Source of the DNA: Myxococcota bacterium
Lineage (GTDB): Bacteria; Myxococcota_A; UBA9160; SMWR01
Assembly: GCA_039030075.1 (NCBI GenBank)
Contig: JBCCEW010000002.1
Coordinates: 248,001 to 312,000 of the forward strand
DNA: 64,000 bases
Reading direction: 5' to 3'
Below, in pieces: positions 5,800 through 48,873 of this stretch. The notes under the pieces were generated by a model. The model was not told where the DNA came from. It saw nothing but the letters and a program-made list of their open reading frames with translations, and ran no database searches. Both the position numbers and the translations under genes were made by a program. The first letter of the stretch is position 1. Each line of letters begins with the position of its first letter.

Positions 5800-6594
5800 T
5801 CAGACGGAGGAGGTTTCGCGGAGGACGCGTGGTTGCCGCGGAGACGTGCGCAGCAGTCGCTCGGCCACTCGAACCAGGGTTCGTGACGATTTCGCGGTCG
5901 GGAAGGACTCGACCACCGCCCGTTGCAGGCGGACGGCCTCGGCCAAGCGGTCGTCGCTCGGGACGTGGCCGAGGAACGCGGGGGAGAGGTCGAGGAAGCG
6001 CTTCGCGATCTTCTCGAGGTGATCGTGGGTGCGTCGCGCATCGCCTTCGCTGCGCGACGCGTTGACCAGGATCTCGACCGGGAGCTGCGCTTCCTGGGCG
6101 AGAGCCTTCAGGGTGGCGTAGGCGTCGACCAGACTGGTGGGCTCCGGTGTCGTCACGAGCACGGCCAGATCGCAGCAGGCGGCGAGGCCGAGCGCCGTCT
6201 CGCCGACCCCGGCCCCGATGTCGATCAGGACCAGGTCGTAGCGCCGGGTGGCGGCGAAGAGCGGGACCAGCAGGGGGGCGAGCTGGTGGGGGCGACAGTC
6301 CGAGAGGCGTCGCGTTCCCTGCCCGGCCGGCAGGACGTGGATTCCGCGCGGGCCTTCGACGATGGCCTCCTCGAAGGCGCAGTGGCCCGAGAGGAGTTCG
6401 CGCGAGGTGTTGCGCGGGGCGAGCCCGAGCAGCGTGTCGACGTTGGCCAGGCCGAGGTCGCCGTCGACCACGAGGACACGGGCGCCGCGCGTCGCGCAGG
6501 CCACGGCCACGTTGGTCGCGACGTTGGTCTTGCCGACGCCGCCCTTGCCGCTGAGGAAGCCGATGATCGGAGCGTCTTTTTCGTTCATGGACAT
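5800..6594 (-). CDS. flhG: FlhG (YlxH/FleN), MinD-type ATPase controlling flagellar number
   Basis: A 264-residue ParA/MinD-like ATPase. The deviant Walker A SGKGGVGKTNVATNVA is at residues ~15-30, and VLVVDGDLGLANVDTLLGL follows. FlhG counteracts FlhF to set flagellar number and position. It overlaps the end of flhF by 10 bp, the standard arrangement. The protein starts almost directly at the P-loop and lacks the N-terminal DQAxxLR helix that in studied FlhG proteins activates FlhF GTPase; the upstream in-frame sequence does not supply one. Confidence 0.92.
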   Translation of the reverse strand: MSMNEKDAPIIGFLSGKGGVGKTNVATNVAVACATRGARVLVVDGDLGLANVDTLLGLAPRNTSRELLSGHCAFEEAIVEGPRGIHVLPAGQGTRRLSDCRPHQLAPLLVPLFAATRRYDLVLIDIGAGVGETALGLAACCDLAVLVTTPEPTSLVDAYATLKALAQEAQLPVEILVNASRSEGDARRTHDHLEKIAKRFLDLSPAFLGHVPSDDRLAEAVRLQRAVVESFPTAKSSRTLVRVAERLLRTSPRQPRVLRETSSV

Positions 6595-7733
6595 GTGTGC
6601 AGTACCTGACGTGCGAGAGCGAAAGCATCGGGGGGGACGAAGTGGTCGGGGATCCGTTGACCCGTCCCAACCCAGGAGACCGGCGGGGTGTCGGGCTCGA
6701 GCAGGACGTTCACGAGACCGCCCAGTGCGGCGCTGTCGTCGAGTTTCGACACGACGACCGCTTCGGGGCGAAGGAAGGCGTAGCGGGCGAGCTGCTGGCG
6801 GAGATCCGCTTCCTGGGTGCCGGCGGACAGCACGAGTTGCACCGACGCGTGCTCCCCCAGCGCGGCGCGCTGGTGGGAGAGCTCGGCCAGGGATTCCCGG
6901 TCGTCGCGGCCCTGTCCCGGGGTGTCCACCACCAGGCGGCCGCCGCGCTTCTCGGCGATTCGCGCCAGAGAGTCCGGGGACGTCGCCACGTCTAGCCGGA
7001 CGCCCAAGGCCTTCGCGATCCCCTTGAGCGACGCGACGCCTCCGTGTCGGTGGGCGTCGGTGGTGACCACTCGCGTGTCGGCGTTCGCGTTGTGTCCCGC
7101 CCATTTGCCGACGGTCGTCGTCTTCCCCACCCCGGGCGCACCCACCACGAGCGTGTGGCCGGCTTCCGGGCGCGGCGCGGCGAGCTTTCCCTCGAGGCGT
7201 GCGGCGAGCGCCGCGATCCGCGCCTCTTCGGCGACCTCGCCGGTATCGATGCGTGCCTCGGCGTCCTGACCGAGCAGGGCGGCGAAGCCCTCGGCGATCC
7301 CGGCCGCGCGGAAGTGCGCGGACGATCGATCGGCAGAGGCCTCGGGGACCCGCGCCACCATTGCCCGCGTCAGGCGACGGAGCTCGGCGATCTCCTGTCC
7401 GAGGCTCGGCGGTGGCGTACGCCCGAACTCGGCCTGTTCCAACCAGCTGCGGAGCGCGTGGATCTCGCGCTCGAGTGGCGCAACCACGGCACGCGACACC
7501 TCGAGGCTCTTCCACGAGGCGTCGCGTCCCGTATGAGAGGCTTCGGGTTCGGCCGGCGCCTGGCGCTGGCTCGCCGCGGTGACCTCGACCACGGTCTTCG
7601 CGAGCAGGCCGAAAGCTCCCCGGCGGCGGCGCACACTCTTCGTCGAGAGGATCAACGCGTCCGGTCCCAGGGTCTCGCGTACGGCCGCGAGCGCATCCTG
7701 GGGCGTCTCGGCTTCGAAGCGTTTAATGAGCAT
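6585..7733 (-). CDS. flhF: FlhF, SRP-type GTPase for flagellar placement
   Basis: A 382-residue protein starting MLIKRFEAETPQDALAAVR, with the N-terminal basic domain, a central linker and the SRP-family NG domain. The P-loop is GAPGVGKTTTVGKWA (around residue 198), the G3 region DTPGQGRDD, and the G4 motif SKLDD rather than TKLD. FlhF localises at the cell pole and recruits early flagellar components. Start and stop overlap flhA (11 bp) and flhG (10 bp), consistent with translational coupling. Confidence 0.93.
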   Translation of the reverse strand: MLIKRFEAETPQDALAAVRETLGPDALILSTKSVRRRRGAFGLLAKTVVEVTAASQRQAPAEPEASHTGRDASWKSLEVSRAVVAPLEREIHALRSWLEQAEFGRTPPPSLGQEIAELRRLTRAMVARVPEASADRSSAHFRAAGIAEGFAALLGQDAEARIDTGEVAEEARIAALAARLEGKLAAPRPEAGHTLVVGAPGVGKTTTVGKWAGHNANADTRVVTTDAHRHGGVASLKGIAKALGVRLDVATSPDSLARIAEKRGGRLVVDTPGQGRDDRESLAELSHQRAALGEHASVQLVLSAGTQEADLRQQLARYAFLRPEAVVVSKLDDSAALGGLVNVLLEPDTPPVSWVGTGQRIPDHFVPPDAFALARQVLHTCP

Positions 7734-14729: not shown

Positions 14730-16160
14730 CTATCTCCCGGCCGAGCGAAGGATTCGCTCGGATCCCAGACGGGCGGAGGAGGGCTTGCCCTCGATTCCGA
14801 ATTCCTTGAGACGTCTCCAAAGCGTCGTCGTGGAGATCTGCAAGAGCTGGGCGGCGCGCTTGCGGTTCCACCCGACCCGCTCCAGGGTCTCGATGATGTG
14901 CCGGCGCTCGAGTACGGGGAGGCTCTCGACGACGCCGTCGGGCGCACGCTCGGTCGGTGTCCGATGGAAGCGGGGCAGGACGTCGATGCCGACGACTTCG
15001 CCGCGCGAGAGGGCGACGGCGCGTTCCATCACGTTCTGGAGCTCCCGCACGTTCCCCGGCCACTGGTAGGCCACCAGGGTGTCGAGGGCGTCGGGCGAGA
15101 GCTGGAGTCGGTCGCGGTTCGTGCGTCCCGCGAGGTCGCGCAGGAAGTGCTCGGCGAGCAGCGGGACGTCGGCGAGTCGCTCCCGGAGCGGGGGCACGTG
15201 GAGCGGGATCACCGCGAGGCGGTAGTAGAGGTCCTCGCGGAAGTTCCCCTTCTCGACCTCTTGGACGAGATCCTTGTTGGTCGCGGCCACGAGCCGGACG
15301 TCGACGTAACGCGTGCTGTCGCCACCGATCGGTCGGATTTCGCCGGTCTGAAGGAACCGGAGCAGCTTCGCCTGCATCGAGAGCGGCATCTCCGCCACCT
15401 CGTCGAGGAAGACCGTGCCGGTGTTCGCCTGCTCGAACAGCCCCTTCTTGTTGTTGGTCGCTCCCGTGAAGGAGCCGCGCATGTGTCCGAAGAGCTCGCT
15501 CTCCAGCAGGGTCTCGGGGAAGGCAGCCGAGTTGACGGCCGAGAAGGCTCGGTCGCGGCGGTCGCTCGCCTCATGAATCGCGCGGCCGATCAGCTCCTTG
15601 CCCGAACCGGTCTCGCCGGTCACGAGCACCGTGCTGTCGGTGGGGCCGACCCGCCGGACGAGTTCGAGGAGGTCGACGATCGCCTTCGACTCCCCGACGA
15701 TGCCCGCGAAGCGCTGGGGCGTCTTGCGCGGGCGCGGAGTCGCGGCGCGCGCCGGTTCACGCCGGCCGGCGGCTGCCAGCGCGGCTTCGAAGCTCGTGCT
15801 GTCCCAACCCGTGGGCAGCAGGTAGCAGACGGCCGCGTTGTTGATCGCAGCGCGAATCCGATCGGGCTCCTCGAGCCCCGAGATCAGGATGCGCGGGACA
15901 TGGGGCCAGTGGTCTCGGGTGGTGGTGAGCAGGTCCAGGCCCGAATCCGACGGCAGTGCATCGTCTGCGATCAGCAGATCGACGTCTTCGGTCGTGAGCA
16001 GGCGCAAGGCCTCGGCGGAGGAGAACGCCTCCACGCACCGCATGCCCCGACTCTCGAGGTCGCGCGTGGCGGCCGTGCGAACCTGCGGGTTCGAGGCCAC
16101 GAGAAGCACGTTCTCGGGAGCGCGCTCCGCTTCTTTGTGCGCCGCTGCAGACGAATGCAT
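14730..16160 (-). CDS. NtrC-family sigma-54 activator, probable flagellar master activator (FlrC/FleR-like)
   Basis: A 476-residue three-domain regulator. The receiver (~15-130) keeps an Asp (LLIADDALPSDSG) but lacks the acidic pair at its start (VASNP) and the Lys (CYLLPTGWD). The AAA+ domain is intact: Walker A GETGSGKE (~187), Walker B GTVFLDEVAEM (~250). The sigma-54 contact loop reads GSFTGA (~228) instead of GAFTGA. A Fis-type helix-turn-helix ends the protein (NRKRAAQLLQISTTTLWRR). Encoded between motB and fliL, it is the only NtrC-type protein in the window able to open sigma-54 promoters and the likely binder of the palindromes seen upstream of flagellar operons. Confidence 0.88.
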   Translation of the reverse strand: MHSSAAAHKEAERAPENVLLVASNPQVRTAATRDLESRGMRCVEAFSSAEALRLLTTEDVDLLIADDALPSDSGLDLLTTTRDHWPHVPRILISGLEEPDRIRAAINNAAVCYLLPTGWDSTSFEAALAAAGRREPARAATPRPRKTPQRFAGIVGESKAIVDLLELVRRVGPTDSTVLVTGETGSGKELIGRAIHEASDRRDRAFSAVNSAAFPETLLESELFGHMRGSFTGATNNKKGLFEQANTGTVFLDEVAEMPLSMQAKLLRFLQTGEIRPIGGDSTRYVDVRLVAATNKDLVQEVEKGNFREDLYYRLAVIPLHVPPLRERLADVPLLAEHFLRDLAGRTNRDRLQLSPDALDTLVAYQWPGNVRELQNVMERAVALSRGEVVGIDVLPRFHRTPTERAPDGVVESLPVLERRHIIETLERVGWNRKRAAQLLQISTTTLWRRLKEFGIEGKPSSARLGSERILRSAGR

Positions 16161-26385: not shown

Positions 26386-27945
26386 TCAGCTCTGGTTCAG
26401 CCAGTTCTTCAGGGCGCGCGCGCCGTCTTCGGTCGCGGGCGCGACACCGCCGGCCCCGAGAGCGGCGGTCGCGGCGGAGCCGCCGAGGGCCTCTAGATCG
26501 CCAGCGCCGCCTTCTTCGAGCCCGGCGGCGGCCACGGGCGCGGCCGCTGCAGGTTCGGGCAGGGCGGCGACCACGGGCTGCACCACCAGGCGCGCGAACA
26601 GGAGCAGGGCGACCACCGCGACGAGGCCGCGCAGCAGGGTCACGATCAGTGGCGACCACTGGGGCCAGAAGCTCGGCGCGTCGAGCGGGATCGCCTCGGG
26701 CGCGTGGAAGGGAGCGCTGCGCACGGTGATCTGGTCACCGCGGTCGGCGTCGAAACCCACCGCCTGACGGGCGAGCGCTTCGAAGAGGCTCAGATCTTCC
26801 GGCGTCCACGGAGCGGCAGACTCCTCGGCCCCTTCGGGCGCGATCGGGTCGGCGACCAGCACGGCGATCGACAGCCGTTCGACGCGCCCCATCGGCACCA
26901 CGCGTCGGCTGACCGACTTGCTGATCTCGTAGTTGATCGTCTCGGTCTCACGCGACGAGGACACGGCCGGTTCGGGGGGGAAGGCCGCATCCCCGCCCGG
27001 CACGTTGGCGGCCACGCCGGGCACACCGCCCGCGGTTCCACTGGCCTCGTCGTTGTTCGTCTCGGTGCTGCGGCGCTCGCTGCGCGCCACCTGGGAATCC
27101 GGATCGAAGACTTCCTCGGTGGTCTCCACCTCGGTCCAGTCGAGGTCCGCGCGGACCCGCGCCACGACGCTGTCCGGGCCGGCGGTCTTCTCGAGGATCG
27201 TCTCGATGCGATTGGCGAGCTCGGCCTCGACCCGCTCCTGGTAGTTCGAGACGCCCGTGGCGCCGAGGGATCCGGGCATCCCGTCCTCGAGGGGCGCCAG
27301 CAGCCGTCCCGATCCATCGACGACCGTGACGTTCGCCGCGTCCAGACTCTCGAGGCCGCTGGCGACGAGATGGACCACGGCCTGTACCTGCTCTGTGGCG
27401 AGTTCGTGTCCCGGGCGCAGCCGCACCACCACGCTCGCGCTCGGGGCGCGCTCCTCACGCGACAACACGTTGCGGCGCTCGGGGATCACCACCTGCACAC
27501 GCGCGCGCTCGACCGGATCGAGCTGTTCGATGCTGCGAGCCAGCTCGCCCTGCACGGCGCGCAGGTAGTTCACCCGGTGCACGAAGTCGGTGACGCCGAA
27601 GGCGGGCTTGTCGAAAAGCTCGAAGCCCGCGCTGCCACCGCTGGGGAGCCCCTTTCCGGCCAGTCGGATGCGCGCTTCCGCCACCTCGACGGCCGGCACC
27701 AGGACCGCGGTCCCCCCGTCGGCGAGCTGGTAGTCGATCTGCTCGGCGGCCAGTGCCTCGGCGACGCGTGCCGCCTCGTCCTCGGGAAGGCCGCGGAAGA
27801 CGGCCCGGTACTCGGGGGCGGCGCCGCCGAAGACGACCCAACCGAAGAACGCCAGCGATCCCATCGCCGACAGCGCGAGCAACATGCGTCGCGCGGGCGA
27901 CAAGGCCGCGAGCTGCGAAAAGAGATTCTCGAACCACTCACCCAT
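26386..27945 (-). CDS. fliF: FliF, MS-ring protein
   Basis: A 519-residue protein with two transmembrane segments near residues 20-42 and 430-455 bracketing the periplasmic ring-building motifs (YRAVFRGLPEDEAARVAEAL; FGVTDFVHRVNYLRAVQGEL). The short cytosolic C-terminus (EDGARALKNWLNQS) binds FliG. fliF abuts fliE directly. Confidence 0.95.
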   Translation of the reverse strand: MGEWFENLFSQLAALSPARRMLLALSAMGSLAFFGWVVFGGAAPEYRAVFRGLPEDEAARVAEALAAEQIDYQLADGGTAVLVPAVEVAEARIRLAGKGLPSGGSAGFELFDKPAFGVTDFVHRVNYLRAVQGELARSIEQLDPVERARVQVVIPERRNVLSREERAPSASVVVRLRPGHELATEQVQAVVHLVASGLESLDAANVTVVDGSGRLLAPLEDGMPGSLGATGVSNYQERVEAELANRIETILEKTAGPDSVVARVRADLDWTEVETTEEVFDPDSQVARSERRSTETNNDEASGTAGGVPGVAANVPGGDAAFPPEPAVSSSRETETINYEISKSVSRRVVPMGRVERLSIAVLVADPIAPEGAEESAAPWTPEDLSLFEALARQAVGFDADRGDQITVRSAPFHAPEAIPLDAPSFWPQWSPLIVTLLRGLVAVVALLLFARLVVQPVVAALPEPAAAAPVAAAGLEEGGAGDLEALGGSAATAALGAGGVAPATEDGARALKNWLNQS

Positions 27946-28266
27946 CTAGAGCTGGAGCCTCATCACTTCTCGGTACGCTTCGAGCGCCCGGGAGCTCATC
28001 GCCACGGTGTGACGCAACGCCACCTCGGCCTTCGTCAGTGCGAGGACGGCCTCGACGGCATCGCCTTCGCCGGTCGCTACGTCGGACGCGGCCTGGTTCG
28101 CGCGCACGAGGAGTTCGTTGGTCTTGCCGAGGCTCTCGCGAATCTGGTCGGCGAAGCGCGGGTCGCTCACCGCATCGGCGGGCTTCGCCCCCGCCGCGGG
28201 TCGCTTCTGCTCCGCACCGGACAGCGCGGAGAGCCCGAGACGCTCAAACGCCTGAATCGCGTCCAT
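27946..28266 (-). CDS. fliE: FliE, MS-ring/rod junction protein
   Basis: A 106-residue protein of normal size. The conserved C-terminal helix (VEAVLALTKAEVALRHTVAM and YREVMRLQL) identifies it. It sits 1 bp after flgC and directly before fliF. Confidence 0.93.
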   Translation of the reverse strand: MDAIQAFERLGLSALSGAEQKRPAAGAKPADAVSDPRFADQIRESLGKTNELLVRANQAASDVATGEGDAVEAVLALTKAEVALRHTVAMSSRALEAYREVMRLQL

Positions 28267-28267
28267 C

Positions 28268-28693
28268 TCAGCGTCCGATCTGCATCGCGGCTTCGGTCAT
28301 CTCGCGCACTTTGCGCACGATGACCAGGTTGGCTTCATAGGAGCGGCTCGCCGACATCACGTTCGCGAGCTCGTTGACGACGTTCACCCGCGGCATCGCG
28401 ACGATGCCCTCTTCGTTGGCGTCGGGGTGCGACGGGTCGAAGCGTTCGATCGGGGCCCGTGAGTCGATCGCGACCTCCTGCACCTGGACAGTGCGGAGCG
28501 CGCGATCCAGCGTGCTTCCGAAGGGTCCGCCCACGGGCCGTGCTGCGATCACGGGATCGCGGCGGCGGTACACCTGACCCGAGTCGTCCCGGGTGGTGTG
28601 GACGTTGGCGAGATTCGAGGCGGCGGCGGCCATCCGGGCCCGTTGGGTGGTGAGGCCCGAGGCCGCGATGTCCATGATGTCACCGAACTTCAT
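28268..28693 (-). CDS. flgC: FlgC, proximal rod protein
   Basis: A 141-residue rod protein. N-terminal DIAASGLTTQRARMAAAASN and NLANVHTTRD, C-terminal VNVVNELANVMSASRSYEAN. Start at ATG 28693 behind GGAGGATTCCCC. It lies 14 bp after flgB. Confidence 0.95.
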   Translation of the reverse strand: MKFGDIMDIAASGLTTQRARMAAAASNLANVHTTRDDSGQVYRRRDPVIAARPVGGPFGSTLDRALRTVQVQEVAIDSRAPIERFDPSHPDANEEGIVAMPRVNVVNELANVMSASRSYEANLVIVRKVREMTEAAMQIGR

Positions 28694-28707: not shown

Positions 28708-29088
28708 CTAGCGCTGCTCGCCGGTCGCGGCGATGCGGGCGATCACGTAGACCCGCGAAAGGATGTTGGCCTGCTTGGTGAAGGCGCCCGCGTTGCGTGA
28801 CAGGGTCAGGGCTTCCTGGTCACGATCGATCCCGTTGCCATCGGGACGGGTGCCACGCGGACCCCGGACCACGCGCACGCCTTCCGGCCCCGCGGTCAGG
28901 TGGCGAGAGCGGGTCGCTTCGAGGGTCTCGGCCGCTCGATCGAGGGCGTCCTGGAACTCGATGTCCATCCGCCGATAGCCCGGGGTGTCGGCGTTGGCGA
29001 CGTTCGCGGCGAGCACCCCCTGGCGGGTGGCGCGAAAGCGCATCGCGTCCTCGAGCACGCCGATCGGGCCGGCCAGCAGCCTCTCCAT
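28708..29088 (-). CDS. flgB: FlgB, proximal rod protein
   Basis: A 126-residue rod protein starting MERLLAGPIGVLEDAMRFRA, with the ANVANADTPGYRRMDIEF motif. The start at 29088 follows GGAGGGAAGC. It heads the unit that runs to flgE and lies about 36 bases downstream of the predicted sigma-54 transcription start. Confidence 0.94.
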   Translation of the reverse strand: MERLLAGPIGVLEDAMRFRATRQGVLAANVANADTPGYRRMDIEFQDALDRAAETLEATRSRHLTAGPEGVRVVRGPRGTRPDGNGIDRDQEALTLSRNAGAFTKQANILSRVYVIARIAATGEQR

Positions 29089-29219: not shown

Positions 29220-29234
29220 CTTCCAGGCTGAAAC
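29220..29234. promoter_or_regulatory. Activator palindrome upstream of flgB
   Basis: CTTCCAGGCTGAAAC matches GTTTCAGTCTGAAAC at 12 of 15 positions. Its centre is about 103 bp upstream of the predicted flgB transcription start. Confidence 0.6.
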
Positions 29235-29267
29235 GCGCCGCGGAAGATTCGACCCCGCGGCCCGGGT

Positions 29268-30494
29268 TCAGTCGAGCGCGTAGCGTCGAATCTTGTTGCG
29301 CAGCGTGCGCGGGCTGATGCCCAACGCGCGTGCGGCCATGGCCCGGTTGCCTTCGGCCACCTCGAGAGCGCGAGCGATCACCGTGCATTCGATCTCGCGG
29401 AGATCGAATCCCTCGACGTCGATGCGATGCGCGGTCGTCGCGGTGGCGGCAGGCTCCGGTCCGGCGGCGGGCATGTCGAGCGCGGTGCGCCGCATCCAGT
29501 TCTCGAGTTCGTGGAGGTTCCCCGGGAAGGCGTGCTGCGCGAGCTCGCGCTGGAGGTCGCTCGGGAGCGGGGCCTGGGGAAGGGTTGCGGAGGGCGCGAA
29601 GCTGGCCAGGAAGCGGCGCGCCAGCGGTAGGAGATCTTCGCGCCGCTCGCGGAGGGGCGGGATGAGGAGGTCGATGACGCGGAGCCGCTCGCGGAGATCG
29701 CGGGAGAAGCGGCCCTCGGCGACCGCCCGATCGAGATCGCAGCGGCTGGTCGCCACCACCCGAACATCCACCGCGGGGTGCGTGTGGAGCACGGAGCGGT
29801 GCTGCAGCAGCCGCAGCACGGCCTCCTGGCCGTGGGGAGAGAGTCGTTCGATGCCCTCGAGCACCAGCGTCCCGCCATCGGCGAGCTCGAGGGGGGCCGC
29901 CTGCTGCCCCGCCGCCGCGGTCACGAAGTCGCCTTCTCCGCGGAGGTCGCCCGCGTCGAGTTCCACGCACGGGTTGCCCGCGCGCGGGCTGCGCTCATGG
30001 AGCCAGCGGGCGAGATGGCTCTTCCCGGTGCCAGTCTCTCCGGTCAGGAGCACGGTGGCGTCGCTGCGCGCCGCCCGCTCGAGGTGTGCCAGCAGCGGTC
30101 GCATCGCGGGCGACTCGGCGACGAGGCCCGCGTCCGTGCGGCGCCTGCGCGCGCGGGAAGCGACGCTCTCCAGCGCCCGTTCGAGAGATTCGACGTCGAA
30201 GGGCCGCCGCAGGAAACCGTGCGCGCCTTCTCGCAGGGCGCGGATCACGGAACCCCGCTCGCGGGCGGGCCCGATCGCCAGGAGTCGCAAGCGCGGAACC
30301 TGGCTGCGCAGGGTTCGCAGCATCTGCCAGCCCGTCGCATCGGAGAGGTCGACGACGGCGACGTCGAAATGGGCATCGCGATCCCGCGGCAGTGCGTCGG
30401 CATCGGCCTCCCACGCACCGTGTCCCGCGCGGCGCGTCGCAAGGGCGACGTCCCGCTGCAAATGAGGATCGGCGACCCGGACCCAGACGTTCAC
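29268..30494 (-). CDS. Degenerate NtrC-family regulator (FlbD/FlrC-like) without GAFTGA
   Basis: A 408-residue protein starting with GTG overlapping the upstream gene's stop. The receiver keeps an Asp (AVVDLSDATG) but has Arg for Lys (FLRRPFD). The AAA+ domain keeps Walker A (GETGTGKSHLA, ~155), but Walker B reads GGTLVLEGIERL instead of GGTLFLDEI, and the whole GAFTGA loop is missing: sequence runs from VELDAGDLRGEGDF to QQAAPLELADGG. The Fis-type helix-turn-helix GNRAMAARALGISPRTLRNK is excellent and FlbD-like. It can probably bind DNA but not activate sigma-54 in the usual way. It is encoded just upstream of the flgB promoter region. Confidence 0.82.
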   Translation of the reverse strand: MNVWVRVADPHLQRDVALATRRAGHGAWEADADALPRDRDAHFDVAVVDLSDATGWQMLRTLRSQVPRLRLLAIGPARERGSVIRALREGAHGFLRRPFDVESLERALESVASRARRRRTDAGLVAESPAMRPLLAHLERAARSDATVLLTGETGTGKSHLARWLHERSPRAGNPCVELDAGDLRGEGDFVTAAAGQQAAPLELADGGTLVLEGIERLSPHGQEAVLRLLQHRSVLHTHPAVDVRVVATSRCDLDRAVAEGRFSRDLRERLRVIDLLIPPLRERREDLLPLARRFLASFAPSATLPQAPLPSDLQRELAQHAFPGNLHELENWMRRTALDMPAAGPEPAATATTAHRIDVEGFDLREIECTVIARALEVAEGNRAMAARALGISPRTLRNKIRRYALD

Positions 30495-31090
30495 CTCGCG
30501 GTTCCCTCGCAGAACCAGAGCGTGGCTTCGAGCAGCGGGGCGTTCGCCTCCCACGTCAGGCGACTGCCCGACGTCCGCGCGAAGCGCTCACTCTCCTCGA
30601 AGGGCCGTTCGGGCGTGTTCCGGGGGGTGGCCCCGGCATGGGCGCGCAACGACAGGCCTTGGTGCTCGGGGGATCGCGCCGCCGCCAGCTGCAGTCGCCC
30701 CTCCGGACCCGTCCAGTTCGCGGCCTCGCGCAGCAAGTGCATGCACGAGCGACGCGCCAGGCGCGCGTCCACCGGCCAGACCGCCGAGGTCGCTTCGAAG
30801 GGATCGAGTCGGACGCCGCGCGCCGCCAGCACCGGCCGCAGCTGACCCAGGAGACTCTGCAGCGCTCCGGCCGCATCCCCTTCCGGCACTTCGGCGGACG
30901 GCGCGAGCCGAGCGAGCGCCTCTTGAATGCGCGCATCGAGGTCGGCGAGCGCATCGCGGATCGTCGTCGCGAAACCTTCCGGCGCAGGGTAGGGCGCACG
31001 TAGCCACTGACTCGCGGCGAGCTCGATGCGCGCCATCGGGTCGCGCATCTCTCGCAGATGGGTCTCGAGATCGAGGTCGCTCGAACTCAG
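30491..31090 (-). CDS. Degenerate histidine-kinase-like protein (FlrB/FleS position)
   Basis: About 199 residues, assuming a CTG start at 31090 that overlaps the preceding stop and follows a strong GAGGGAGA site; the first ATG is at 31048. The N-terminal helix has ETHLREMRDPMARIELAA, aligning with a kinase H-box (HExRNP), but the His position is Arg; another His lies two residues earlier. The C-terminal part resembles a shrunken HATPase fold (HLLREAANWTGPEGRLQLAA in place of the N-box), without recognisable G-boxes. It precedes the degenerate NtrC-type regulator with a 4-bp overlap, as kinase and regulator do in FlrB/FlrC pairs. Assignment rests on layout and weak similarity. Confidence 0.6.
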   Translation of the reverse strand: MSSSDLDLETHLREMRDPMARIELAASQWLRAPYPAPEGFATTIRDALADLDARIQEALARLAPSAEVPEGDAAGALQSLLGQLRPVLAARGVRLDPFEATSAVWPVDARLARRSCMHLLREAANWTGPEGRLQLAAARSPEHQGLSLRAHAGATPRNTPERPFEESERFARTSGSRLTWEANAPLLEATLWFCEGTAR

Positions 31091-33015
31091 GGGCGTTCTC
31101 CCTCGAACGCCGCTCGCAGGTCGTCGACACGGTCTTGCGCTCGGCTCAAGCGGTTCCACATCGAGGGGTCGACATCGTTGGTGGCCCGCGCAGGGGGCGT
31201 CAACTCGGCGCGGAAGCGCGCCCGCGCCTGGCGCGGCCCCTCGGGCAGCAGCTCGCTGGCACGCAGGAAGGCGGACCTTGCGGCTACGGGTCGGCCGCGT
31301 TCTCCCAGCAGATCGCTCGCCCACAGCCACGCCTGGCCCCGGTCCTCTCGATGAACGGCTGCCACGGGGACGTTGAGCGATCGCAGCAACGCCACGGAGA
31401 TCGCGTCGGTGTCGACCTCGTCGCCTCGGGCCCGCGATCGCAACACCACGAAGCCCAGCTCCGTTTCTGCGTCGACGCGCATGGCTTCGGGGAGCGTCTC
31501 CTCATCGAGCAGCCGCAGCAGACTCGCGAGGGCCTCGGCGTCGCGCTCCTCCAGGATCGCCAGTCGCGTTTCGAGCCAGCGCCACTCGAGGCTCGCGCGC
31601 TGCGCCTGGGCCGTGGGCCGCGTGTCGTTGCGCTGCGCGCGCAGCGAAGCGCGGAGGGCGGCAACGCGATCGAGGGCCATCGAGGCCTTGGCGATTCGCA
31701 GCCCGAGCTCGCCGGTTTCGATGCCGAAGCGGCGCGCGAGCCCCCGGTAGACATCGAGGCCCGCCGGTGCCAGGCCGAGCTCGACGAAGCAGTCGCCCAA
31801 CACCAGCATCGGCCCCGGGTCCGAAGCGCGCCGCAGGAACGCGTCGCGTTCGTTGCCGAGTCGCTTGATGACGAGTGGGCACGGCGCCTCGGGGGCGCCC
31901 GCCGCAATCATCGCCCGGTCGAGGTTGTCCGCGAAACGGGGCTTCGCGGTCTCTGGGCTGCTGTCCCGCGAAAGCCGCCCGACTTCGATCAGTGCCTCGT
32001 CGAGGCGATCCGCTTCCAGCAACAGCTCCAGCCGGGCGTCGCGGGCCTGGCTGCGCACCGCGGGGTGCGCGGTCTTGGTAAGGGGCTCGAGCCGCTCGAT
32101 GCGTGCCTCGAGGCTTTCCCCGAGCAAGCCGTGATCGGCGAGGCGAACGCGGGCCAGGGCGCGGGCGGCCTCCGAACTCCCGCTCTGCGAGACCCGCCGC
32201 AGCGCACGACGCGCGTCTTCTCGCCGTTCGAGGGCGATCAGGACGTCAGCCTTGCGCACCGTCGCCACGCCGCTGCCGTCCTCCACACGTTCGGCGTCGG
32301 CCAACCAGCGGTGCGCAGAGCGGAGCTGCCCGGCGTCGATGGCGAACTCGGCGGCGCGGGGTCCCCAGGTGGAGAGGTCGAGACCGCGGTCGCGGGCTTC
32401 TTCGAGATCGGCTTCGAACGCTTTCTGGATCTCGCGCGTGACGTCGGCAAGGGGCCATCCTTGCTCGAGGTCGGTCCGCCGCAAGCGGGCCGCGAGCGCG
32501 AGGGTCTTTCGTTCCGAGCCCTCGAGCGCTCGGTAGGTCGCTGCGGCGACACTCTCGCGTCGGCCTTCGAGCACGGCTGCCTCCGCCCGATAGTAGGTGG
32601 CCACCTCTTTCCAGAGTCGACCGGCGGGTAGCAGGGCTTCGGCCCGCCGGACCTCGGCGCGGGCTTCGGGTGCGAGCCCAGCCCGGAGGAACGCGCGCGC
32701 CAACTCGAGATGCTGGCAGGCGCGATCCGCCTTCCCCGACGGTCCCCACTCGCGCTCCGCGGCATCGAGGGAACGCTGGGACGCTGTCGGATTCGTGCCG
32801 CTGCGTACTTCTTCGAGTACCGCACGGATTTCGGGGTGCAGCGCGTCGCTGGCGCGGCAGTTTCCGGCCCCGTCGATGAAACCCGCGTTCAATGCGCGTG
32901 GCGCCAGGAGAGCGAAGGCACTCGGTCCGGGAACCTCGGGCGCTGCCCCGGCGAACGAGGCACACACGAGCGCGACGGCCAGGCTCGCGCCGAGACTTCC
33001 GCGACGGGTCTTCAC
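31087..33015 (-). CDS. Secreted helical-repeat (TPR-like) protein
   Basis: A 642-residue protein starting with GTG at 33015, overlapping the PilZ gene stop. A signal peptide (residues ~1-24, LGASLAVALVCASFAGA) predicts periplasmic location. The remainder is Ala/Arg/Glu-rich helix pairs resembling tetratricopeptide repeats (for example HLELARAFLRAGLAPEARAE and LVLGDCFVELGLAPAGLDVY). No enzymatic motif is seen. Its place between PilZ and kinase-like genes suggests it supplies a periplasmic input or scaffold for that regulatory operon; this is inferred. Confidence 0.7.
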   Translation of the reverse strand: MKTRRGSLGASLAVALVCASFAGAAPEVPGPSAFALLAPRALNAGFIDGAGNCRASDALHPEIRAVLEEVRSGTNPTASQRSLDAAEREWGPSGKADRACQHLELARAFLRAGLAPEARAEVRRAEALLPAGRLWKEVATYYRAEAAVLEGRRESVAAATYRALEGSERKTLALAARLRRTDLEQGWPLADVTREIQKAFEADLEEARDRGLDLSTWGPRAAEFAIDAGQLRSAHRWLADAERVEDGSGVATVRKADVLIALERREDARRALRRVSQSGSSEAARALARVRLADHGLLGESLEARIERLEPLTKTAHPAVRSQARDARLELLLEADRLDEALIEVGRLSRDSSPETAKPRFADNLDRAMIAAGAPEAPCPLVIKRLGNERDAFLRRASDPGPMLVLGDCFVELGLAPAGLDVYRGLARRFGIETGELGLRIAKASMALDRVAALRASLRAQRNDTRPTAQAQRASLEWRWLETRLAILEERDAEALASLLRLLDEETLPEAMRVDAETELGFVVLRSRARGDEVDTDAISVALLRSLNVPVAAVHREDRGQAWLWASDLLGERGRPVAARSAFLRASELLPEGPRQARARFRAELTPPARATNDVDPSMWNRLSRAQDRVDDLRAAFEGERP

Positions 33016-33548
33016 GCGTCGTCCCGAGCCGTCGATCGTGAACGCAGCGCGAAGCGCTCGACATCGAGACAGTGGCGGATGATGGATTCGCGATCCTCCT
33101 CGCGGATCGCGGAGAACCCGCAGGCGACCTCGCTTCCATCGTCGCGCGGGATCGTCCGGACCACCACGCCCAGGCAACGAACGCGCTGGGCCGGCGGGCC
33201 GGGCAGCTCGAACTCGAGCAGGAGCGTCGCATCGTGCGCGACCGGGTCCTGGGTGACCCAACTGATCCCGCTGCCCGAGATCACGACATCGTGGACCTCG
33301 CTGGGCCGCAGCTCTTGCCGGTCTTCTCCGAGGATCTCGAGTATCCGGTCGAGCTTGACCTCGAGACGGTCCATCCACGCGGCGAGCTGGGGGTCGACGT
33401 CGCCCAGGTCGCCCGTCTCGCCCGCGTAGATCTCTCGCTCCAAGCGACTTCGCTCGCCAGCCGAGATGACCTGCGCCCGGAGTGGCAACTGGGTTTGGAC
33501 GCGAAAGTAGTCGCGTTTCTCGAGACCCTGCGCTTCGATTGCCGCCAT
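33012..33548 (-). CDS. PilZ domain protein, first gene of the regulatory operon
   Basis: A 178-residue protein with an N-terminal EKRDYFRVQTQLPLRAQV region (the Arg of KRDYFRV being the PilZ Arg motif), a helical insert, and a second half with VVISGSGISWV and VRCLGVVVRTI, matching PilZ strands. I chose ATG 33548, behind GGGAGGTCGGC: the predicted sigma-54 start lies near 33569, so the longer candidate at 33584 would not be in the transcript and the one at 33566 would have almost no leader. It probably binds cyclic di-GMP. Confidence 0.8.
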   Translation of the reverse strand: MAAIEAQGLEKRDYFRVQTQLPLRAQVISAGERSRLEREIYAGETGDLGDVDPQLAAWMDRLEVKLDRILEILGEDRQELRPSEVHDVVISGSGISWVTQDPVAHDATLLLEFELPGPPAQRVRCLGVVVRTIPRDDGSEVACGFSAIREEDRESIIRHCLDVERFALRSRSTARDDA

Positions 33549-33579: not shown

Positions 33580-33595
33580 GGCAAGTTGCGTGCCA
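33580..33595 (-). promoter_or_regulatory. Sigma-54 promoter of the PilZ regulatory operon
   Basis: TGGCACGCAACTTGCC fits the -24/-12 consensus except for the last base. Predicted start near 33569, 21 bases ahead of the chosen PilZ ATG. Confidence 0.82.
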
Positions 33596-33633: not shown

Positions 33634-33648
33634 GTTTCAGTCTGAAAC
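33634..33648. promoter_or_regulatory. Activator palindrome, proximal copy (best match)
   Basis: GTTTCAGTCTGAAAC has perfect 7-base inverted arms. Its centre is about 72 bp upstream of the predicted transcription start and 23 bp from the next copy. Confidence 0.75.
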
Positions 33649-33656
33649 GCGAACCC

Positions 33657-33671
33657 GTTTCAGAGTGAAAC
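33657..33671. promoter_or_regulatory. Activator palindrome, distal copy
   Basis: GTTTCAGAGTGAAAC has perfect 6-base arms. It lies on nearly the same helix face as the proximal copy (23 bp centre to centre), as expected for cooperative binding of an NtrC-type activator. Confidence 0.72.
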
Positions 33672-33693: not shown

Positions 33694-34830
33694 CTACTCG
33701 GAGTCGCCATCCGCGACGGAGACGCGCTCGCGGCCGCCCTGTTTGGCTTCGTACATGGCCTTGTCGGCCCGACCCAACCACTCCTTGGTGGTCTCGCCCG
33801 AGATCAGGACGGCGGCCCCGATCGAGGCGGACACGCGGACGGTCTCGCCTTCGTGGGGCACCTCGATCTCCTTGATCGCGAACAGGAGCCGTTCGCCCTC
33901 TTCGAGGGCCTCCTTCTGCGTGCGACCCCGGATGATGGCGACGAACTCGTCGCCGCCGTACCGACCGACGAAGTCGTCGCGGCGACGCAGGCAGCGCTTC
34001 AGGCCGCGTGCGACCTTCCGCAGGATCTCGTCTCCAACCTGGTGACCGTACTTGTCGTTCACCCACTTGAAATGATCGACGTCGATCATGAAGACGATGG
34101 CACAGCTACCGAGCACGGCTCCGAGCTGGGTCACGCGCGTCAGGTGTTCGTCGAAGGAGGCCCGGTTGTAGACGCCCGTCAGCGCGTCGATCGCGCCCTT
34201 CTCGCGCGACTCGATCAGCTGAGTCGCGAGCTGGTCGAGTCGGGACGAGAGGCGCTCGATCTGGTTCTCGTAGCGCGCCGCGCGAACCTCGATCACACCC
34301 TCGATCAGGTTGGCTGCTGCCGACGCCTGCTGACGGAGCTGGCTCGTGTCGTCGGCCTTCACCGCCTCGCGCAGGTTCGTGAGCTGGCTCTTCACGCGCG
34401 CGTCCGAAGATCGATCCGCGGACACCGCCTTGCTGAACGACTCCACGAACACCCAGAGGGTTTGCCGCAGGTCCTGGAGGCTGGAGATCACGTGCTCGCG
34501 TTCCTCGCTCCGGTGCTGACGCACGAAGCGATCGAGCTCGATCCAATCCCGCACCTGGGAGGTTTCGTCTTCAGCACCGGGCGGCGGGGTTCCGAGCAAG
34601 AGGTGGCGTGCCCACGCCTCGAACTGGTTCGAGGCATCAGCGCCCGTTGTGCTCGGAAGGTCGAACGTGCCGCGCCCCCAATGCCGCAGCATCGAGGCAA
34701 AGGAGTCCAGGCACGTGTCCACGTCGACGCCCGGCGAGCCCGCGTCCGCGGGAGAGGCGTTCTCGGGCGCCTCCGGCTCGGCCGCTTCGTCGGTCAGCGA
34801 GCGAATGCGCCGTCTTCGCTCTTCGGTCAT
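33694..34830 (-). CDS. Diguanylate cyclase (GGDEF protein)
   Basis: A 378-residue cytosolic protein. The N-terminal ~200 residues are helical and unrecognised, ending in a coiled coil (RYENQIERLSSRLDQLATQL). The C-terminal GGDEF domain has an intact active site (GRYGGDEFVAI, ~292) and an inhibitory RxxD site five residues upstream (RRDD), so synthesis with product inhibition is expected. Start at ATG 34830 with GGGGAAAAG upstream. Located after the fliD-fliS group, it could feed the three PilZ proteins of this locus. Confidence 0.9.
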   Translation of the reverse strand: MTEERRRRIRSLTDEAAEPEAPENASPADAGSPGVDVDTCLDSFASMLRHWGRGTFDLPSTTGADASNQFEAWARHLLLGTPPPGAEDETSQVRDWIELDRFVRQHRSEEREHVISSLQDLRQTLWVFVESFSKAVSADRSSDARVKSQLTNLREAVKADDTSQLRQQASAAANLIEGVIEVRAARYENQIERLSSRLDQLATQLIESREKGAIDALTGVYNRASFDEHLTRVTQLGAVLGSCAIVFMIDVDHFKWVNDKYGHQVGDEILRKVARGLKRCLRRRDDFVGRYGGDEFVAIIRGRTQKEALEEGERLLFAIKEIEVPHEGETVRVSASIGAAVLISGETTKEWLGRADKAMYEAKQGGRERVSVADGDSE

Positions 34831-38497: not shown

Positions 38498-39322
38498 CTA
38501 CTGCAGCAGCGAGAGCGCGTTCTGCGTAGACACGTTGGCCTGGGCGAGCACCGAGATGCCCGCCTGCTGGAGCACCTGGAACCGCGTCAGGGTTGCGGTC
38601 TCCGAGGCCACGTCGACGTCGCGGATGCGCGACTCGGCAGCGGCCGTGTTCTCGACGCTGACCGCGATCGATCGAATCGTGGATTCGAGCCGGTTCTGCG
38701 CCGTACCGAAGTCGGCGCGGAGACCGGCGACCGAGTCGATCGCCGTGTCGAGGGTGGCCAGGGCGTTCTGCGCGTCGGTGGACGTCGTGATCGCCAGGGC
38801 ATTCACGCCGAGACCCGTCGCGGTGGCGTCCACACCGGCGACCGAGATGCGGTCGTTGGCGGTGTTGTCCGCGCCCACCTGGAACGAGACCGAGGTCGTC
38901 GTGCCGTCGAGGAGCGCGGTGCCGTTGAACTCGGTAACGGCCGCGACGCGGTCGATCTCGTCGATCAGGGCCGAGAACTCCTGATTCAGCGTCGTCCGCT
39001 CACCTGCGCCCAGCGTGCCGTTGGCGGCCTGAATCGCGAGCTCACGCATCCGAATCAGGTTGCCGCTGGTCTCGTTCAGCGCGCCTTCACCGACCTGCAG
39101 GAGCGAAATGCCGTCGAGGGCGTTTCGCTGAGCCTGCTGGAGACTGCGCACGTCCGCGCGCAGTCGCTCGGAGATGGCGAGGCCCGCAGCGTCGTCCGAG
39201 GCCCGCGTGATGCGGAGACCCGAGGAGAGACGCTCGAGCGATCGCTGGAGCATGTTCGTACTGTTCGAAAGGTTCCGCTGAGCGTTCAGCGAAGCCGGGT
39301 TCGTATTGATCCGAAGACCCAT
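38498..39322 (-). CDS. fliC: Flagellin
   Basis: A short 274-residue flagellin with only the conserved D0/D1 helices and a small middle. The N-terminus MGLRINTNPASLNAQRNLSN and SSGLRITRASDDAAGLAISE are diagnostic, as is the C-terminal RFQVLQQAGISVLAQANVST. Start at ATG 39322, behind CGGAGGA. It is the only flagellin gene in the window, has its own sigma-54 promoter and terminator, and its leader carries GGA motifs that could bind CsrA. Confidence 0.96.
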   Translation of the reverse strand: MGLRINTNPASLNAQRNLSNSTNMLQRSLERLSSGLRITRASDDAAGLAISERLRADVRSLQQAQRNALDGISLLQVGEGALNETSGNLIRMRELAIQAANGTLGAGERTTLNQEFSALIDEIDRVAAVTEFNGTALLDGTTTSVSFQVGADNTANDRISVAGVDATATGLGVNALAITTSTDAQNALATLDTAIDSVAGLRADFGTAQNRLESTIRSIAVSVENTAAAESRIRDVDVASETATLTRFQVLQQAGISVLAQANVSTQNALSLLQ

Positions 39323-39334
39323 GGTGGTTCGATT

Positions 39335-39364
39335 CCTCCGTGACAGTGATGCCTGCCGATCCTT
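39335..39364 (-). promoter_or_regulatory. Possible CsrA sites in the flagellin leader
   Basis: Two ANGGA motifs lie in the flagellin leader: ACGGAGG at 39335-39341, overlapping the ribosome site, and AAGGA at 39360-39364. Paired sites with one over the ribosome site are the arrangement by which CsrA represses flagellin translation in Bacillus, with FliW as antagonist. Both csrA and fliW are encoded 1.5-2 kb away. Confidence 0.45.
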
Positions 39365-39504
39365 TGGCAGCCATTCGCTTCGCGCACACGCCTCGCGACT
39401 TGCGAAGGTGCGTGCGTTCCGCGCGGGGGGAGCCACCGCGCCTCAGGCACACGGTCAGCTCGACTCCGGATTCCCCGTGTTCCTCCGGAGCCGCCGTCGA
39501 AGAG

Positions 39505-39620: not shown

Positions 39621-39635
39621 GTTTCGCGCTGAAAC
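39621..39635. promoter_or_regulatory. Activator palindrome shared by flagellin and the GNAT gene
   Basis: GTTTCGCGCTGAAAC matches the best palindrome at 12 of 15 positions. Its centre is about 133 bp upstream of the flagellin start point and about 73 bp upstream of the predicted rightward GNAT start point. It is the only copy seen in this divergent region. Confidence 0.65.
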
Positions 39636-48857: not shown

Positions 48858-48873
48858 TGCAATGCGCGTGCCG
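48858..48873 (-). promoter_or_regulatory. Sigma-54 promoter of the flgF operon
   Basis: CGGCACGCGCATTGCA matches the -24/-12 consensus except for the first base. Predicted start near 48847. Confidence 0.8.

Follow-up and report, generated by a model that had tools for sequence, protein, structure and literature searches.

How can a histidine kinase and its response regulator be retained at the head of a flagellar gene cluster once both appear to have lost the residues required for their chemistry? This question is raised by a stretch of 64,000 nucleotides from the genome of a member of the Myxococcota (positions 248,001 to 312,000 of contig JBCCEW010000002.1, assembly GCA_039030075.1), hereafter called the window. 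Between window positions 29268 and 33548, four minus-strand genes with overlapping stop and start codons encode a PilZ-domain protein, an exported TPR-like protein (T), a kinase-like protein (K) and a regulator (R), followed by flagellar genes:

33012..33548, minus strand: PilZ-domain protein, first gene of the operon (Pfam PilZ, E=1.6e-7)
31087..33014, minus strand: T, exported TPR-like protein (Pfam TPR match below threshold; signal-peptide-like N-terminus judged by eye)
30491..31090, minus strand: K, predicted pseudo-histidine kinase with a DHp domain and a CA core lacking the His and the N, G1, F and G2 boxes
29268..30494, minus strand: R, FlrC/FlbD-type regulator with a degenerate receiver (REC), a dead AAA+ domain and an intact Fis-type helix-turn-helix (HTH)
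28708..29088, minus strand: flgB
28268..28693, minus strand: flgC
27946..28266, minus strand: fliE
26386..27945, minus strand: fliF

The reading frames are tightly interlocked. T starts with a GTG that overlaps the stop codon of the PilZ gene, and R with a GTG that overlaps the stop codon of K (as GTGA). The start of K is probably a CTG, which overlaps the stop codon of T (as CTGA) and has a GGGAG upstream; the homologs of K start at about the same place and are read from ATG, GTG or similar codons. The order Z-T-K-R-flgB-flgC-fliE-fliF is common to genomes of several families within the taxonomic order, indicating that the arrangement did not arise by chance. The four-gene overlapping operon proposed in the initial annotation is thus recovered by homolog search well beyond this genome, and the conserved gene order and open frames rule out an oddity or pseudogene confined to the window.

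K escapes recognition by Pfam alone, which found no domain in the window protein, and was identified through alignment and fold. HisKA is detected in 7 of the 13 aligned members of its family, and the K profile retrieves real kinases both in genomes and in the PDB. An AlphaFold model of the window protein (mean pLDDT 85) predicts a DHp hairpin and a reduced CA core, as in the histidine-kinase fold, and its Foldseek matches include HK853, ZraS, the pseudokinase DivL and ChpT-type phosphotransferases. Both the phosphoacceptor and the nucleotide-binding elements of an FlrB-type kinase are missing from this scaffold. The H-box His, replaced by Arg in the window (REMRDPM), is absent from all 13 homologs, which contain R, L, A, V or I instead. 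Alignment with true FlrB-type kinases further reveals that the N-box Asn pair has been lost and the region from G1 to G2 (G1-F-G2) deleted in the same 13 proteins. In related lineages, the slot is occupied by a true FlrB-type kinase with the motif HEIRNPL or HELRNPL. Since the His and the ATP boxes are missing in every K, even where R is intact, the alignment indicates that K is an ancient pseudokinase, with kinase chemistry lost throughout the order, and that this loss long preceded the decay of the regulator. An outgroup family of the same class (f12; L186, L188, L189, L190) carries the TPR-like gene directly before an intact FlrC-type R, with no kinase gene in between, which suggests that this family has lost the kinase altogether. 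The window contains no HATPase_c domain, as opposed to 47 in the whole genome, and a search of the window for a replacement kinase found none.

R belongs to the FlrC/FlbD orthologs, as indicated by its position upstream of flgBC-fliEF and its shared recognition helix. Pfam detects Sigma54_activat and HTH_8 (E=4.5e-14 for the latter), and the window protein has kept the Walker A motif (GETGTGKS) as well as the recognition helix, SPRTLRNKIRRY (the RTLRNKI helix). The L1/GAFTGA loop has been deleted, the Walker B motif is lost (reading TLVLEGI), sensor I reads SR, the first R-finger is Ser and sensor II is His. R therefore lacks the loop and the complete Walker A/B pair of a functional bacterial enhancer-binding protein (bEBP), while retaining the Fis-type HTH. 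Its receiver preserves the Asp, has lost the Thr position and contains Arg in place of Lys, and thus no longer qualifies as phosphorylatable. Degenerate receivers are found in R proteins across the class.

The loss of the AAA+ motor is younger than that of the kinase and has recurred. R proteins from f12 and from members of families f6, f7 and f10 of the order retain GAFTGA, GSFTGA or GAFSGA together with the DE of Walker B, and one member of f8 (G013) combines GAFTGA with DQ. Both motifs have disappeared, in different ways, from the window genus (family f1), the rest of f8 and all f9 members examined, and several relatives have an altered Walker A as well. When these losses are mapped on a tree of FlgB/FlgC/FliE/FliF, the window genus groups with the intact f10 (support 100/99). 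Well-supported branches force three separate events, so that R, judged by its motifs, has lost its sigma54-activator signature at least three times independently. This count is independent of G063 (L192), whose "intact" label on the tree is unsure because its R reading is broken in the contig; there, the R frame is short (L192, 3687-4220 and 6404) and lies about 2 kb from flgB, which may reflect a frameshift, an insertion or an assembly fault. In G014 (L193), only the C-terminal part of R is visible. The sensor I Asn is already replaced by Gln in GAFTGA-bearing R proteins of the order (L025, L026, L028, L029, L194), perhaps as an early step of decay.

The DNA-binding part of R has fared differently. 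The recognition helix RTLRNK is kept in nearly all aligned R proteins, and in close pairs from f9 the HTH is 92-94% identical while the REC and AAA domains drift, with a dN/dS for the whole of R of 0.18-0.41, as compared to 0.07 in an intact pair. In two species of the window genus, by contrast, the HTH is only 60% identical and R has a dN/dS of 0.57, an approximate value at this divergence, with dS near saturation. Selection on R is thus weaker or shifted in this genus, where the protein may be losing its DNA target.

If R can no longer open promoters, another protein must do so. Three -24/-12 promoters reach full score in the window, each of them on the flagellar strand, and the genome encodes a single RpoN:

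33580..33595, minus strand: sigma54 -24/-12 promoter of the PilZ operon, TGGCACGCAACTTGCC, full score
29134..29149, minus strand: sigma54 -24/-12 promoter of flgBC-fliEF, TGGCACGCCCATTGCA, full score, kept in all relatives scored
39505..39520, minus strand: sigma54 promoter of the flagellin gene (38498-39436), full score, with a B palindrome at 39621-39635
14730..16160, minus strand: NtrC1, intact NtrC-type activator (GSFTGA, FLDE), encoded between fliL and motB

Flagellin looks sigma54-driven, given its full-score promoter and the GTTTCA palindrome (B, see below) upstream of it. A fourth, near-consensus site (CGGCACGCGCATTGCA, window position 48873) precedes the flgA/flgH region in the same orientation. 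The -24/-12 site of flgB is kept in 26 of 26 genomes scored (the order plus f12), whether R is intact or dead. The idea that loss of R was accompanied by loss of its sigma54 promoter can thus be discarded, and genomes with a dead R need another activator. NtrC1 is likely to be this activator, as judged by its motifs. Most flagellated members of the order encode an ortholog (51-68% identity). Every ortholog checked retains Walker A, GAFTGA or GSFTGA, Walker B and the R-fingers in intact form and shares the helix TTTLWRRLKEF, which differs from the recognition helix of R. In f12, R is present and a close NtrC1 ortholog is absent. The receiver of NtrC1 is also degenerate in the window, lacking the conserved Lys (many relatives keep LRKP), and neither of the two flagellar activators may depend on phosphorylation in this genome.

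The upstream regions of these promoters contain two types of palindrome, A (CGGCAGN3CTGCCG) and B (GTTTCAN3TGAAAC):

33634..33648, unstranded: palindrome B, GTTTCAGACTGAAAC, candidate NtrC1 site upstream of PilZ
33657..33671, unstranded: palindrome B, GTTTCACTCTGAAAC, candidate NtrC1 site upstream of PilZ
29220..29234, unstranded: palindrome B with two mismatches, upstream of flgB
29241..29255, unstranded: weak site A, GGGTCGAATCTTCCG, 8/12 matches, 21 bp upstream of B, candidate R site (p=0.13 for the window alone)

Palindrome A precedes flgB in most of the order and in f12, and it recurs in several distant FlrC lineages whose kinase is a true one. B is present in the NtrC1-bearing order and, outside it, no more frequent than expected by chance. 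From this co-occurrence across lineages, we infer that A is the site of R and B that of NtrC1. The only two perfect copies of B in the 5.76-Mb genome both lie at the promoter of the PilZ operon, and three of the five sites with at most one mismatch are located at flagellar sigma54 promoters; no A site was seen at the PilZ promoter of the window. At flgB in 22 genomes, the best A among the offsets tested is separated from the downstream B by 20-24 or 32-33 bp, corresponding to about two or three helical turns, and this spacing is significant in 19 of the 22, which are related and hence not independent samples. Side-by-side sites at helical spacing fit contact or co-assembly of the two proteins better than competition.

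Most of what the initial annotation had read from this locus agrees with these results: a kinase-like protein without its catalytic residues, here with the predicted fold of a reduced CA core; a regulator that has lost GAFTGA and Walker B and kept Walker A and the HTH; a module that appears to operate without phosphorylation; a coexisting intact NtrC-type activator; and the best activator sites of the window in front of the operon, which has a full-score promoter as well as the two perfect B palindromes. Its suggestion that R and NtrC1 use shared sites probably does not hold. The two palindromes separate by lineage, are probably distinct and adjacent, and this idea was therefore abandoned as the leading explanation.

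Our preferred reading, to which we assign a probability of about 0.45, is that the operon represents the FlrB/FlrC slot of a polar-flagellum hierarchy run without phosphotransfer, in which NtrC1 opens the promoters, the adjoining R tunes NtrC1 and K signals by contact. Bound to the GTTTCA palindromes, NtrC1 would open three sigma54 promoters, those in front of the PilZ operon, flgBC-fliEF and the flagellin gene. R would occupy a separate CGGCAG/CTGCCG site at a distance of about two helical turns and contact NtrC1 there; as a DNA-bound pseudo-subunit or co-regulator, it would tune the assembly of NtrC1, be it as a helper or as a brake. The DHp domain of K would bind the pseudo-receiver of R, so that an assembly or secretion cue could be passed on by protein contact, comparable to the action of FliX on FlbD. 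The retention of both genes in place despite their lost chemistry suggests that the pair now acts solely through contacts with DNA and protein. It is tempting to go further and speculate, albeit tentatively, that the dead FlrC ortholog and the live NtrC-type activator co-assemble side by side on a composite sigma54 enhancer, with the pseudokinase relaying the state of flagellar assembly by contact alone. Counting against the main reading are the weak A site of the window, the lack of such a site at its PilZ promoter, the drift of the R HTH in the window genus together with the dN/dS of R there, and the unusual receiver of NtrC1 in the window. Our literature search found no report of this arrangement.

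For the window genus, the main competing explanation is that the module is vestigial: NtrC1 would drive all flagellar sigma54 promoters, with K and R under relaxed selection and kept mainly by the operon structure. The repeated loss of the catalytic motifs of R, its relaxed dN/dS and the weak A site in the window all point in this direction, as does the complete absence of the kinase from f12. However, R, K and T have remained open and translationally coupled over a large divergence, during which an R free of selection would, by our own rough estimate from distances, have accumulated about 35 nonsense changes. Moreover, genus g34 of f9 combines the most decayed AAA+ domain with a near-perfect HTH and A sites. 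We thus consider a purely vestigial role unlikely.

The adjacency of A and B could also mean that R acts as a brake, sitting beside or over NtrC1 to block it or poisoning a mixed ring, and thereby turning early genes off as assembly proceeds. Dead AAA+ subunits are able to act dominantly. Moreover, FlbD also represses fliF at ftr4 (PMC3930126). Yet occlusion is not favored by the position of the A sites, which are distal to B, away from the promoter and on the same face of the helix, and the recognition helices of R and NtrC1 differ. A dedicated brake therefore seems quite unlikely to us. It is improbable that R has become a regulator of housekeeping promoters that works without ATP hydrolysis, in the manner of the Rhodobacter or Caulobacter NtrC proteins: GAFTGA-less NtrC proteins do act in this way (PMC10274813), but the sites attributed to R lie upstream of sigma54 promoters, all of which are kept. 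Finally, despite the intact Walker A of the window protein, the notion that R continues to activate sigma54 by means of an unrecognized loop is hardly credible: L1 is deleted, changes affect Walker B, sensor I, the first R-finger and sensor II alike, and Walker A is altered as well in several relatives.

An input of c-di-GMP through the PilZ protein is uncertain: the protein contains RxxxR (as RDYFR) but reads VISGSG at the [D/N]xSxxG position, with V replacing D/N. A gene for a GGDEF diguanylate cyclase (33694-34746) terminates immediately upstream of the PilZ operon promoter, and an FlhG/FleN-like ParA protein and an FlhF-like GTPase are encoded at 5803-7733. FlhG-type proteins restrain FleQ-type activators, and NtrC1 may thus be a target of the FlhG-like protein.

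If the composite-enhancer reading is true, a two-component checkpoint would have become nothing but a protein-DNA scaffold, and its motor would have disappeared on several independent occasions. In any case, a single order offers a natural series in which receiver and kinase chemistry are lost first, the ATPase motor later and repeatedly, and DNA contact last. Should R work with NtrC1 at paired sites, a sigma54 activator could be replaced by a neighbor, with the old one staying on as a DNA-bound modulator, which would be of relevance for mixed complexes of enhancer-binding proteins and the rewiring of regulatory hierarchies.

Among known systems, the closest parallel is provided by FlrB/FlrC (FleS/FleR, FlgS/FlgR), with which the locus shares its place before flgBC-fliEF, the orthology of R, the sigma54 targets, a second activator and FlhF/FlhG encoded nearby. 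It differs in having a kinase without His or ATP site, a degenerate receiver and an activator domain that is dead in several lineages. Caulobacter FlbD is likewise an FlrC-like regulator whose receiver lacks key residues, and it is controlled by a non-kinase partner, FliX (PMC3096577); by analogy, K may serve as the contact partner of R. However, K is a pseudokinase with a kinase fold rather than a FliX homolog, and FlbD keeps GAFTGA and itself activates sigma54. DivL, a Caulobacter pseudokinase whose kinase fold serves response-regulator binding instead of catalysis (PMC4211667), is among the structural matches of the K model, although K is shorter, soluble and has entirely lost the ATP lid and boxes. 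The GAFTGA-less NtrC proteins of Caulobacter and Rhodobacter capsulatus and VpsR have, like R, lost the L1 loop and kept DNA binding (PMC10274813), but they act at sigma70 promoters, whereas R also lacks Walker B and its promoters remain sigma54-dependent in type. Rhodobacter sphaeroides FleQ and FleT, finally, are described as activators that form a heteromeric complex at flagellar sigma54 promoters (PMC7277832) and thus set a precedent for the pairing of two bEBP-type proteins. Unlike in that system, one member of the pair considered here has lost its ATPase function and has a DNA site to itself, and the complex is only postulated.
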